Of a stretch of DNA of 64,000 nt, positions 7,962 through 45,503 are shown piece by piece. Source of the DNA: Tissierellia bacterium (GTDB lineage: Bacteria > Bacillota > Clostridia > Tissierellales > Peptoniphilaceae). A program made the position numbers and the translations under genes. How positions within the stretch are numbered: position 1 is the stretch's first letter; every line of letters begins with the position of its first letter. The stretch covers positions 1 to 64,000 of the forward strand of contig JAAYQA010000008.1 in the NCBI GenBank assembly GCA_012519495.1. The letters run 5' to 3'. Under the pieces are notes generated by a model, which did no database searches, had not been told where the DNA came from, and was given only the letters and a program-made list of their open reading frames with translations.

Positions 7962-8222
7962 TGATCAAAAGGCAATGGCAGAGCAGCGCGTTCCCTAAAA
8001 GAGCTTCCAGAGAGTCGGCACCCCGGTGAAAGTCGACAGCTCTTGAGAACAAGCCATCTCTCTGCGGCTGTTTCTTCGAAAGCGAGTAGAAGAAAACGGA
8101 TGTCCCCGTTATCATGGACTAAGGCTGATGGGCCTGAGCGACGGCATTATGCCGTAATTAGGGTGGTACCGCGGAGAATCTTCGTCCCTGATCCAAACGG
8201 ATCGGGAATGAGGATTTTTTTA
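7962..8222 (+). promoter_or_regulatory. T-box leader (tRNA-Ile sensing) of the ilv operon
   Basis: The T-box GGGTGGTACCGCG is at 8161-8173. Stem I closes by GCAGAG (7978-7983) with CTCTGC (8060-8065), and one base before the 3' strand is ATC (8056-8058), an isoleucine specifier. The terminator pairs TCCCTGATCC (8185-8194) with GGATCGGGA (8199-8207), extended by weaker pairs and ending in seven T (8215-8221). Low charging of tRNA-Ile should turn the operon on. Confidence 0.92.
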
Positions 8223-13244: not shown

Positions 13245-13343
13245 ATGAGACAATTTTTCGCACAATTCTATTTTGGCTATTACTTTACGAACGAAAAACG
13301 TAAAGCTATTTTGGGTTGTGCAAGGGAAATCTCTCTAAAGTAA
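13245..13343 (+). CDS. Phe/Tyr-rich attenuation leader peptide of the aromatic operon
   Basis: A 32-codon ORF, ATG 13245 to TAA 13341-13343, preceded by GAGGTAGA. Residues 4-14 read FFAQFYFGYYF: five Phe and three Tyr in eleven positions. A terminator follows 24 bases after the stop and aroF begins right after it. This is the layout of a ribosome-stalling leader peptide: scarcity of charged tRNA-Phe or tRNA-Tyr would stall the ribosome and prevent termination. I did not find one clear antiterminator pairing by eye. Confidence 0.85.
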   Translation: MRQFFAQFYFGYYFTNEKRKAILGCAREISLK

Positions 13344-13366
13344 ACGGATTTAGGACTACGAGACCA

Positions 13367-13397
13367 ACATGCCCCCAAAACAGGGGCATGTTTTTTT
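13367..13397 (+). terminator. Attenuator terminator before aroF
   Basis: CATGCCCC (13368-13375) pairs with GGGGCATG (13383-13390), followed by seven T. It lies between the leader peptide stop and the aroF ribosome site (AGGAGG, 13401-13406), so it must be overcome to express the operon. Confidence 0.9.
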
Positions 13398-13411
13398 ATG
13401 AGGAGGATAAA

Positions 13412-14425
13412 ATGATTGTAAAACTGAAACCGGGTTCGGACCAAAAGCAAATACAGCGTTTGATGCGCTGGATCAAGGAGCAGGGCCTGGAAATTGAATA
13501 TTCCGAAGGGAGTACCTATACCATATTGGGGCTGATCGGTGACACGGCCACGATCGATGCCAATCTGATCCAGGCGATGGAGATCGTCGAGTCGGTGGTG
13601 CGCATACAGGATCCGTTCAAGAAGGTGAACCGGATGTTTCATCCGGCGGACACAGTGATCGAACTGCCCGGCGGAGCAAAAATCGGTGGCGGGCATTTTG
13701 CCGTGATGGCCGGGCCGTGTTCGGTGGAGTCGGAAGAGCAGATTATTGCCGTGGCAAAAAGTGTGAAGGCGGCGGGGGCTACGATTCTCCGCGGCGGTGC
13801 GTTCAAACCGCGTACCTCGCCTTATGCTTTTCAGGGCATGGGAGCCGACGGAATCGAACTGCTCCTGAAGGCGAAAGAAGCAACAGGGCTTCCTATCGTA
13901 TCGGAAATTATGGATATATCCCAGCTGCCGTATTTTGAAGATATCGACATTTTGCAGGTTGGCGCGCGCAATATGCAAAACTTCACGCTGTTGAAAGAAG
14001 TGGGCCGACTGAACAAGCCCGTATTGCTCAAGCGCGGTTTGTCTGCGACGTATCAGGAGCTTTTGATGTCGGCGGAGTATATTATGGCAAACGGCAATAG
14101 CCGGGTCATTTTATGCGAGCGGGGGATCCGCACTTTTGAAACCGGTACGCGCAATACGCTGGATATTACGGCGATTCCGTATCTGAAGGAAAAGACGCAT
14201 CTGCCGGTGGTGGTGGACCCCAGTCATGCGGCAGGGATGCATCGCATGGTGAAGCCTTTGTCGTTGGCATCGGTGGCGGCGGGCTGCGACGGCCTTTTGA
14301 TCGAGGTGCACAATGATCCCGAACATGCGCTGTGCGACGGCCCGCAATCCTTAAAGCCCGGTTCGTTTGACGAACTGGCCGGCCAATTGTTCAAATTGCG
14401 TGCTCTGATGGAAACTGTGGCATGA
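13412..14425 (+). CDS. aroF: DAHP synthase (type I-beta, with N-terminal regulatory domain)
   Basis: First step of the shikimate pathway: PEP plus erythrose-4-phosphate gives DAHP. The 337-residue protein starts at ATG 13412 after AGGAGG. Residues 1-70 form the ferredoxin/ACT-like domain known in the Thermotoga-type enzyme to bind Phe/Tyr; the barrel follows with MAGPCSVESEEQI, RGGAFKPRTSPYAFQG and VVDPSHAAG. Feedback by Phe/Tyr would match the Phe/Tyr leader peptide. It overlaps tyrA by four bases. Confidence 0.95.
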   Translation: MIVKLKPGSDQKQIQRLMRWIKEQGLEIEYSEGSTYTILGLIGDTATIDANLIQAMEIVESVVRIQDPFKKVNRMFHPADTVIELPGGAKIGGGHFAVMAGPCSVESEEQIIAVAKSVKAAGATILRGGAFKPRTSPYAFQGMGADGIELLLKAKEATGLPIVSEIMDISQLPYFEDIDILQVGARNMQNFTLLKEVGRLNKPVLLKRGLSATYQELLMSAEYIMANGNSRVILCERGIRTFETGTRNTLDITAIPYLKEKTHLPVVVDPSHAAGMHRMVKPLSLASVAAGCDGLLIEVHNDPEHALCDGPQSLKPGSFDELAGQLFKLRALMETVA

Positions 14426-35662: not shown

Positions 35663-35667
35663 GTTTT

Positions 35668-35838
35668 TGTCTTTGAGAGTAAACAGATTTAAATGAAACC
35701 GACATCTTTTATAAGGGATTGTGACTGTTCTGATTTGAATGGCAAGCCCCCTTGCGAGGGGACGTCAGACATCTTAGACAACGAACCCACCTTCACGTAC
35801 TGAAGGTTTTCATTTGTCGTTTACCGCTCAAAGATACT
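35668..35838 (+). ncRNA. ssrS: 6S RNA (RNA polymerase regulator), predicted
   Basis: A ~170-nt non-coding transcript whose two ends pair: GTCTTTGAG...GTAAAC at the 5' side (about 35668-35684) with GTTTAC...CTCAAAGA at the 3' side (about 35818-35834), leaving a long rod with an unpaired middle and an apical GC-rich arm (CCCCTTGCGAGGGG). That architecture, the length and the strong solo promoter match 6S RNA, which mimics open promoter DNA. Family assignment is by shape, not alignment. Confidence 0.7.
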
Positions 35839-35850
35839 AAGCTTCGGCTG

Positions 35851-35896
35851 AAAAAAAGCCCCATGCATCTAAATCAGATGGATGGGGTATTTTTTT
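35851..35896. terminator. Bidirectional terminator between 6S RNA and the PHP gene
   Basis: CCCCATGCATCT (35859-35870) pairs with AGATGGATGGGG (35876-35887) with one mismatch. T-rich tracts occur on both strands (T at 35890-35896; A at 35851-35857). The stop codon of the minus-strand PHP gene lies inside the stem. Confidence 0.85.
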
Positions 35897-42887: not shown

Positions 42888-43895
42888 ATGGCAGGAACAC
42901 CAACCATAAAAGATGTGGCAAAATTAGCAGGGGTATCCATATCCACGGTATCCCGTGTAATGAACGACTCCAAACCGGTCAGCCCGGAATCGCGCCGGAA
43001 GGTTTTGGATGCGATACAGAAACTGGATTTCAAACCGAATGAGCTGGCGCGTTCGCTGGTCATGAAACGATCCAATCTGATCGGCGTGGTCGTGAAAGAT
43101 ATCGGCATTCCCTATATGGCGGGGATTATCCGCGGGATTGAAGAGATCGGCAAAATGTATAAGTTCGATATTTTGCTTTCGAGCTCCTACGGGGAAGAAG
43201 ACAGCGAACTGGACACCGTGCAGTTTATGTTTACCAAGCAGGTGGACGGCATCATTCTCGTGTCGGAAAAAACCACCGAACGCGTTGTGGACACGATCAA
43301 AGAGCACAAGTTGCCGTTTTTGATTTTAGACCGCATTTACGAGCAGTCGCGGATCAATACGGTGGATGTGGACTATGAGCAGGCTGTGCAGCTCATTATC
43401 GAATTCCTGGAGAGCATGGGGCATACCCGCATACTGCACGCCGGGCAGAAAAAGGATTCCCGCAGCGGCGCGGAAAAGTTTATCGCCTATCGGGAAGCTA
43501 TGCGAACCCGCGGCTGGGACGAGCATTTTATCCACGTCCCGGGGACAACCTACCGGGAGTACAAAGAAAGCTGCGAAGAACTGGCCGCCTATTGTAAAAA
43601 ACATGCGATCAGTGCCGTCTTCTGTATGGATGATGAGCTTGCGATTGCCCTGATGAATCATTTTTATGACACGGGTGTGGGGGTACCGGAAGATATTTCC
43701 GTCTTCGGTTTCGGCGACGATCCCTACGCGTCCATTCACCGGCCGAAGCTTTCCACGGTGCGCATACCCTATTACGATATCGGTGCGATTGCCATGCGCA
43801 AGCTGATCAAACACCTGCGCAAAGAAGAACTGATGAGCGAAAGCACCAATGTGCCGATTCAGCTCGTAAAGAGAGACTCTGTTGCAAAGAAATAG
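42888..43895 (+). CDS. LacI-family transcriptional regulator
   Basis: 335 residues: helix-turn-helix TIKDVAKLAGVSISTVSRVM at residues 6-25, hinge helix KPNELARSL, then a periplasmic-binding-protein-like sensor domain. There are no sugar genes in the window, so its effector and targets are unknown. AGGAGG precedes the ATG. The next small gene starts inside its end. Confidence 0.92.
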   Translation: MAGTPTIKDVAKLAGVSISTVSRVMNDSKPVSPESRRKVLDAIQKLDFKPNELARSLVMKRSNLIGVVVKDIGIPYMAGIIRGIEEIGKMYKFDILLSSSYGEEDSELDTVQFMFTKQVDGIILVSEKTTERVVDTIKEHKLPFLILDRIYEQSRINTVDVDYEQAVQLIIEFLESMGHTRILHAGQKKDSRSGAEKFIAYREAMRTRGWDEHFIHVPGTTYREYKESCEELAAYCKKHAISAVFCMDDELAIALMNHFYDTGVGVPEDISVFGFGDDPYASIHRPKLSTVRIPYYDIGAIAMRKLIKHLRKEELMSESTNVPIQLVKRDSVAKK

Positions 43896-44256
43896 ACCCA
43901 AACTGAATAAAAGACTGTTGTCGGTGATGCTGGGGATATCCATCGGGCTTGCCATGCTTGTTTCCACGCTGATTGTGTCGGAGAAGGCTTGGGTGGTGCG
44001 CGTCATCGACAATGTGTTCCTGGGAGCGGTTTTGAATCTGGTGTTCATGCTGTATTTTCGCATGCGCGTTTCCCAGGAGGAAAAAGCCCGGTCCGCTGCA
44101 CAGGAAAAACAAAAAAAGGGAAAAACCAAAAAAGAGCGAAACAAGCTGGGTCGGGTGGAAACCCTGCGGCTCATTACTACGCATTTCGGGTGGAGTTCCT
44201 TTGTTTTGTTTGTCCTGTCGGGTTTAGGGACCGTGATCTACACCTTGGCTAAATAA
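43882..44256 (+). CDS. Small two-helix membrane protein, unknown
   Basis: 124 residues if TTG 43882 is the start, inside the end of the LacI gene. Hydrophobic stretches at about 13-35 and 100-120 flank a very basic middle (KQKKGKTKKERNK). I do not recognise a family. Its translation is probably coupled to the regulator. Confidence 0.55.
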   Translation: MQRNRPKLNKRLLSVMLGISIGLAMLVSTLIVSEKAWVVRVIDNVFLGAVLNLVFMLYFRMRVSQEEKARSAAQEKQKKGKTKKERNKLGRVETLRLITTHFGWSSFVLFVLSGLGTVIYTLAK

Positions 44257-44265
44257 TAACAAGAA

Positions 44266-44401
44266 TATACAGTTGCGAAAGTAAACCGGGTCGGATACAA
44301 TGGATTTCCGGAACCGAATTCAGCCACTGTGAGAAACCGGACAGACGAACCGTCTTTATGTCCACATCTGCGCGAGAAGGCCGTTCTCGGGCAGATTTTT
44401 T
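44266..44401 (+). promoter_or_regulatory. Structured leader with terminator before the metal exporter gene (candidate riboswitch)
   Basis: About 130 bases without an ORF. There is a hairpin GGACAGACG-AAC-CGTCTTTATGTCC (about 44338-44362), then a strong terminator, ATCTGC.CGAGAA (44366-44378) with TTCTCG.GCAGAT (44384-44396) and six T. The segment GCCACTGTGAGAAACCGG upstream recalls part of a cobalamin riboswitch core, but the B12 box is missing, and it does not match the yybP-ykoY manganese motif. The ligand is not assigned. Confidence 0.55.
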
Positions 44402-44426
44402 ATGAAGAAAGGATACGAAAAAAGAC

Positions 44427-45503
44427 ATGCGCACGTTGATTGAAGCGTTTTTGTTGATATTCACTGCCGAACTCGGCGATAAGTCGATGCTTTTGGCAAT
44501 GACGTTTGCGACGCGGTTTCCGCTGCCGCAGGTCTTGATCGGGATCTTTTTGGGAATCCTTGCAAACCACGGTATCGCAGTCTGGGTCGGTTCACAGGCC
44601 GGACGGCTTTTGCCGGTCAGCCTGATTCATCCTTTGTCGGGTGTTTTGTTTCTCCTTTTCGCATTTCTCAGCCTGCGGACAGGCGACGAGGAAGAAGAGA
44701 ATGAGCATGCATCGCGGCATATCTGGCTGGCGTGTGCACTGACCTTTTTTGTGGGGGAATTCGGAGACAAGACACAGATCACCGCCATGACGCTGGCCTC
44801 TACACAGCCCGCTCCGCTGGTCCTGGCAGGTACGGTCAGCGCCATGCTGTGTACATCGCTTCTAAGTATCTGGATCGGAACGCGGATCGGAAAGAAAATC
44901 CCGGAGCGGCTGATGCGGGTGCTGTCGGGCCTGGTATTTCTGGTGGTGGGGGTATTCCGATTGCAGGAGAGTCTTCCGATGCCCGCCTGGGTTTTACTTT
45001 TTGCAGGCAGTGTCTCTTTGTATGCTTTTTTTGCCTATCGTATGCAAAAGGCGGTTTCACCCGGGGAAACCCGGCTGCAAAAACGGGCGGAAGCGCTCAA
45101 ACAGCAGCGGGTGTTATTGGAAAAAGCAACAAATCGCATGTGTCTGGGGCAAGAAAACTGCGGCACCTGCGCAGGTGCCGCGTGTATGATCGGTTATGCA
45201 AAAAGATTGCTGCAGGTGGATGAACGGGAAGGATTACAGGCCGATATTACCGGACTGCTGCGCAAGGAGTATCCGAAGGATACCGTGAAAGACGGCCTCC
45301 TGATTATTTTGCGCTATTATGAAACCTATGGCTGGGATGCGGATCCCGATTCACCGCAGAATCGCCTGCGCAAAATCTTCGAGAGCATTCTTTTCGGAAA
45401 AACGCTTGTAGCCGATTCCCTTACGGCATATCTTCAAGCGCTTCGGGCGCTGGATGCGTCGGGAGATTGGCCGGATCCTGAAAGTATTCTTTCACAAAAG
45501 TGA
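44427..45503 (+). CDS. GDT1/UPF0016 (TMEM165-like) cation exporter with Cys-rich C-terminal domain
   Basis: 358 residues. The first ~200 hold two copies of a three-helix unit, each with the family motif: AELGDKSML near 13 and EFGDKTQIT near 110; these acidic loops bind the exported Mn2+ or Ca2+. A ~150-residue cytoplasmic tail is unusual for the family and contains C-x6-C-x2-C-x4-C (CLGQENCGTCAGAAC), a likely metal site. Its last 83 bases overlap the opposite-strand LysR gene. Confidence 0.85.
   Translation: MRTLIEAFLLIFTAELGDKSMLLAMTFATRFPLPQVLIGIFLGILANHGIAVWVGSQAGRLLPVSLIHPLSGVLFLLFAFLSLRTGDEEEENEHASRHIWLACALTFFVGEFGDKTQITAMTLASTQPAPLVLAGTVSAMLCTSLLSIWIGTRIGKKIPERLMRVLSGLVFLVVGVFRLQESLPMPAWVLLFAGSVSLYAFFAYRMQKAVSPGETRLQKRAEALKQQRVLLEKATNRMCLGQENCGTCAGAACMIGYAKRLLQVDEREGLQADITGLLRKEYPKDTVKDGLLIILRYYETYGWDADPDSPQNRLRKIFESILFGKTLVADSLTAYLQALRALDASGDWPDPESILSQK

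Follow-up and report, generated by a model that had tools for sequence, protein, structure and literature searches.

A terminator-bearing leader ahead of a GDT1-family exporter gene in a Tissierellia bacterium

The locus and its leader

The analyzed DNA is a stretch of 64,000 nucleotides from a Tissierellia bacterium, here called the window. It is part of contig C78 of a genome of 1.79 Mb in 110 contigs. Between positions 42888 and 45503 three genes follow each other on the plus strand (Table 1), namely a LacI/CcpA-type regulator, an open reading frame of 124 amino acids and, after a gap of 170 nt, a GDT1-family gene of 358 amino acids. The small open reading frame has no Pfam family above the cut-off. 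The product of the third gene matches PF01169 with 139.7 bits (cut-off 27), and the alignment contains both ExGD(R/K)(S/T) motifs of GDT1/UPF0016, which confirms the family named in an earlier note on this DNA. The gap ahead of this gene extends from 44257 to 44426, that is, from the stop codon of the small open reading frame, which ends at 44256, to the ATG at 44427.

Table 1. Genes and sequence features around the leader of the GDT1-family gene (window positions)
Feature	Position	Strand	Evidence
LacI/CcpA-type regulator gene, first of the local co-directional run	42888..43895	+	PF00356 and PF13377; in G001 and G012, too, an orthologue precedes GDT1
Small ORF of 124 aa resembling a membrane protein; its TTG start overlaps the LacI gene	43882..44256	+	40% identical orthologue in congener G001
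Predicted long-range stem ACAGT...ACTGT, contains the GCCACTGT segment	44268..44331	+	75 of 500 shuffles as stable, not beyond chance
Sigma-70-like promoter candidate TTGCGA-17-TACAAT within the leader	44273..44301	+	weak, 9 of 12
Hairpin 2, GGACAGACG-aac-CGTC-ttta-TGTCC	44339..44363	+	equalled in stability by 8 of 500 shuffles
Intrinsic terminator (hairpin 44366-44396, T tract 44396-44401)	44366..44401	+	0 of 300 shuffles
Shine-Dalgarno-like AAGAAAGGA of the GDT1 gene	44405..44413	+	sequence
GDT1-family (UPF0016) cation/proton antiporter gene	44427..45503	+	PF01169; ELGDKS and EFGDKT motifs

The gap carries an intrinsic terminator of the sequence ATCTGC-G-CGAGAA-ggccg-TTCTCG-G-GCAGAT in which a G.G mismatch interrupts the 12 base pairs (-18.4 kcal/mol). 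When the gap was shuffled 300 times with dinucleotides preserved, no equally strong combination of hairpin and T tract arose, and we regard it as a genuine intrinsic terminator. It is missing from the output of a simple terminator scan, probably because of the G.G mismatch. The hairpin begins 110 nt past the preceding stop codon. Its stem ends 30 nt and the last T of the tract 25 nt before the ATG of the GDT1 gene; the earlier note had rightly described a leader with a hairpin and a strong terminator at this place and had counted 26 nt. Between the terminator and the ATG there is too little room for a whole sigma-70 promoter with its start site.

The remainder of the leader is less conspicuous. 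Hairpin 2 (-9.0 kcal/mol) is fairly unusual compared with the shuffles. The 5′ part as a whole (44257-44364) is matched in stability by 70 of 500 shuffles, which is not beyond chance, and the portion that would be transcribed from the inner promoter (44308-44364) by 303 of 500. Folding of the whole leader gives a z of -2.2, probably carried mainly by the terminator. Promoter candidates of the kind seen within the leader were found six times in 4.8 kb on both strands, against 4.8 expected by chance. If this promoter were real, the 5′ half of the leader as delimited by the earlier note would lie outside its transcript, and use of the promoter would split the predicted long-range stem in two.

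We found no mutually exclusive antiterminator pairing in the leader. The best partner for the 3′ arm of the terminator (44319-44336, -9.8 kcal/mol) is equalled by 260 of 500 shuffles and the best partner for the 5′ arm (44286-44297) by 207 of 500, both at chance. A resemblance of CTGTGAGAA in the leader to CTGCGCGAGAA of the terminator 5′ arm, considered as antiterminator mimicry, was rejected with a pairing energy at chance. Sequestration of the ribosome-binding site by the 3′ arm of hairpin 2 was likewise rejected (equalled by 215 and by 147 of 1000 shuffles).

Known RNA families and the GDT1 genes of relatives

At gathering cut-offs Rfam reports two T-boxes and a 6S RNA in the window and nothing at the GDT1 leader. 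At 35665-35888 the 6S RNA is followed on the plus strand by a strong hairpin with a T tract. With E up to 10 the region 44000-44600 yields only noise-level viral, viroid, sRNA or frameshift models. Thus, the leader matches no known riboswitch family, as the earlier note had supposed.

The usual candidate at such a place is the manganese riboswitch yybP-ykoY (RF00080). According to PMC7380456, a UPF0016 gene stands under the Mn2+ riboswitch in 328 of 333 screened strains having one. The earlier note had not seen this motif, and indeed RF00080 does not match the region 44000-44600 even at E ≤ 10. In a search of 61 genomes, the genome itself and its congener have no match, while 12 of the 61 have one somewhere at E ≤ 0.001. 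None of these passes the Rfam gathering cut-off, which therefore seems to under-call the class in this order. As a positive control, RF00080 was found ahead of GDT1 in four of five order-level relatives tested (L004, L010, L016 and L017; E between 1.5e-06 and 0.0018, all below the gathering score). The relatives with such diverged copies preceding GDT1 are G042, G048, G050 and G058. Upstream of GDT1 in L007 there is no RF00080 match at E ≤ 0.1. The leader of L007 looks like an even more reduced Mn2+ riboswitch.

Homologous leaders could not be detected. BLAST of the leader against 101 genomes gave the self-match only. A single-sequence covariance model (R1), built from one sequence entered twice and therefore of low sensitivity, recovered only the leader itself in 61 genomes (its own and 60 relatives), besides two further hits with E of 2.4 and 5.0, and nothing convincing at 30 GDT1 loci (one hit, E 5.3). 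A conserved, covarying aptamer among homologous leaders, as expected of a riboswitch, was thus not found in the 61 genomes and 30 loci. Two further scans of genome contigs for relatives gave none in the first and 35 loci in the second, with L060, apparently the contig of the congener G001, as the only close relative. The leader is single-copy in its own genome; BLAST matches of 14-18 bases (E 0.3-1.9), considered as second copies, lie in coding sequence or a T-box leader and were discarded as chance.

The more notable comparative point is that the same-family species examined mostly have no leader at all before GDT1. Of the eighteen same-family relatives with a GDT1 match, 15 were examined. 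The other three are G034, where the match is weak, G103, a short fragment, and G150, whose match lies at the end of a contig; the fragment L003, from G001, was also set aside. The leader is absent in all 15, and in 14 of them GDT1 starts at most 33 nt from the preceding open reading frame. In the fifteenth, L022, a TATAAT-like element follows a terminator that lies 76 nt ahead of the start. In relative G012 GDT1 comes 32 nt after the LacI gene. In the congener G001 the LacI gene, the orthologue of the 124-aa frame, a 140-aa frame and GDT1 all overlap or abut and form a packed operon without leader. The 140-aa frame (L046, 1830-2252) thus occupies the place which the leader has in the window. 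It has no Pfam family, and its protein was not found in the genome studied here in a search run without a positive control. That the leader is a remnant of this frame was considered and rejected as there is no significant match (best E 0.27).

Among 30 relatives, terminators at most 60 nt before the GDT1 start occur in L004, L007, L008, L009 and L010. Those of L004 and L010 go with Mn2+-riboswitch matches. In L009, from relative G040, a plain terminator lies 37 nt ahead of GDT1 in a gap of 71 nt, so that the position of a terminator is by itself not diagnostic.

Terminators of the same layout in the genome

We surveyed terminators with dG ≤ -12 in 313,585 bases, that is, the window and 13 stretches of five contigs, using crude longest-ORF gene calls. 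There are 75 intergenic terminators, 27 of which lie between genes of the same strand, and in nine of these the next start follows within 45 nt. Four of the nine lie 6-63 nt past the preceding stop, the layout of a plain terminator. The other five, the GDT1 terminator among them, lie at least 110 nt past it. One of these five looks like the end of a coding sequence and was dropped as a false positive. The three genuine others precede a DAHP synthase gene with a Phe/Tyr-rich leader peptide (MRQFFAQFYFGYYFTNEKRK...), an aspartokinase-like gene preceded by a T-box (72.4 bits, E 7.5e-16, below the gathering cut-off of 93) and a leuA-type gene behind tandem T-boxes. All three belong to recognisable attenuators. 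The name aspartokinase-like is taken from the sequence of the gene and not from a family search, and the survey list leaves out the T-box terminator at 8176-8217, whose next start is 49 nt on. For comparison, the distance to the preceding stop was measured for 51 terminators and is at most 60 nt for 27 of them.

The region 13245-13412 of the window encodes the leader peptide MRQFFAQFYFGYYFTNEKRKAILGCAREISLK with five Phe and three Tyr in 11 residues, followed by a terminator at 13366-13392 and the DAHP synthase gene (PF00793), and is likely a Phe/Tyr leader-peptide attenuator. PMC8632094 mentions a uORF motif before aroF in Acholeplasma. The T-box is the commonest attenuator within the window. 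Of the tandem T-boxes at 2028-2498 Rfam gathering gives only the first; the second was recognised by GGGTGGTACCGCG and a terminator at 2454-2473. The T-box of the aspartokinase-like gene lies at 12143-12346 of L108.

Possible function of the leader

We suggest, with somewhat better than even confidence, that this is a lineage-specific, terminator-bearing leader which reduces transcription of the exporter gene by attenuation. As no whole promoter with its start site fits behind the terminator, GDT1 would have to be transcribed by polymerases that get past it. They could arrive from the operon of the LacI gene and the 124-aa frame or have started at the weak promoter candidate at 44273-44301. 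Most of them would stop at 44396-44401, and GDT1 would then be made from the read-through fraction. This fraction may be fixed or may be raised by a signal, be it a protein, the ribosome or an ion; an RNA sensor is not recognisable in the leader.

The main argument for attenuation comes from the survey, where three of three genuine comparison terminators are attenuators, a comparison of three cases only. The position of the GDT1 terminator fits this layout, the terminator is beyond chance, and the GDT1 family is typically under Mn2+ control (PMC7380456). Against attenuation stand the alternative pairings at chance level, the weak promoter candidate, the lack of conservation of the leader in any relative and the plain terminator before GDT1 in L009.

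The last case leads to a serious rival, an ordinary intrinsic terminator of the unit of the LacI gene and the 124-aa frame, with GDT1 expressed by incomplete termination and no regulated switch. We consider this a real possibility, albeit on balance not the probable one. Only the terminator and the small hairpin exceed the shuffles, a switch-like competing pairing is missing and the genes form one packed operon in the congener, all of which agrees with a plain terminator. Its hairpin, however, lies 110 nt past the preceding stop, farther than the 60 nt or less of the 27 terminators mentioned above, and the lack of promoter room behind it also argues against this reading.

A new, rare riboswitch for Mn2+ or another metal with the terminator as expression platform appears unlikely. 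GDT1 genes usually stand behind the Mn2+ riboswitch (PMC7380456) and the genome has no RF00080 match, so that another sensor is conceivable; length of the leader and position of the terminator would fit, and beyond position no positive evidence was found. Yet the 5′ part is no more stable than shuffles, a competing antiterminator is missing, no copy was found elsewhere, and the leader is absent in the 15 same-family relatives examined. The new or diverged metal-sensing RNA of the earlier note is not supported: apart from the terminator and the small hairpin nothing exceeds the shuffles, neither an antiterminator nor a partner of the ribosome-binding site rises above chance, and neither the genome itself nor 60 relatives yielded a further copy. 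The lack of conserved structure among relatives, which that note named as a refutation, takes the strong form that the relatives have no such leader. Quite improbable, too, is a very narrowly distributed metal-responsive switch that would replace the missing Mn2+ riboswitch in one lineage, where hairpin 2 (44339-44363) and the stem 44268-44331 would do the sensing and the terminator would give the output.

Leader-peptide attenuation would require that a ribosome on a short open reading frame, for example MDFRNRIQPL at 44300-44332 or a frame from 44359 across the terminator, decides on terminator formation. The genome has a convincing example at 13245-13392, but no short frame in the GDT1 leader is preceded by a good ribosome-binding site or repeats a telling codon several times in a row, and we give this mechanism very little credence. 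Finally, a degenerate cobalamin riboswitch, considered for the resemblance of GCCACTGTGAG, can be practically dismissed and is refuted as far as sequence allows: only the eight bases GCCACTGT speak for it, whereas RF00174 gives no score up to E 10 and a B12 box is missing, and two true members elsewhere in the genome (contigs C36 and C87) reach 95.8 and 78.8 bits, so that the echo is most likely chance.

If this is a terminator leader and no more, the finding would matter little. If it is regulated, it would show how a GDT1 exporter is controlled in a clade that for the most part shows no sign of the usual Mn2+ riboswitch, and it would offer a simple example of how an attenuator can arise inside a single genus.

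Compared with known systems, the leader shares with yybP-ykoY (RF00080) the type of gene, as this riboswitch is the usual control element of GDT1/UPF0016 genes, and differs in having no match to it. With the cobalamin riboswitch (RF00174) it has the eight-base string in common, but neither model score nor B12 box. From T-box leaders (RF00230), whose terminator is similarly placed, it is set apart by the lack of a T-box sequence and of a model match. In layout the leader resembles a transcription attenuator with an intrinsic (Rho-independent) terminator in the 5′ leader: while a recognisable sensor or antiterminator is missing in the GDT1 leader, both have a G+C-rich hairpin with a T tract shortly before the coding sequence and a long spacing from the preceding stop.
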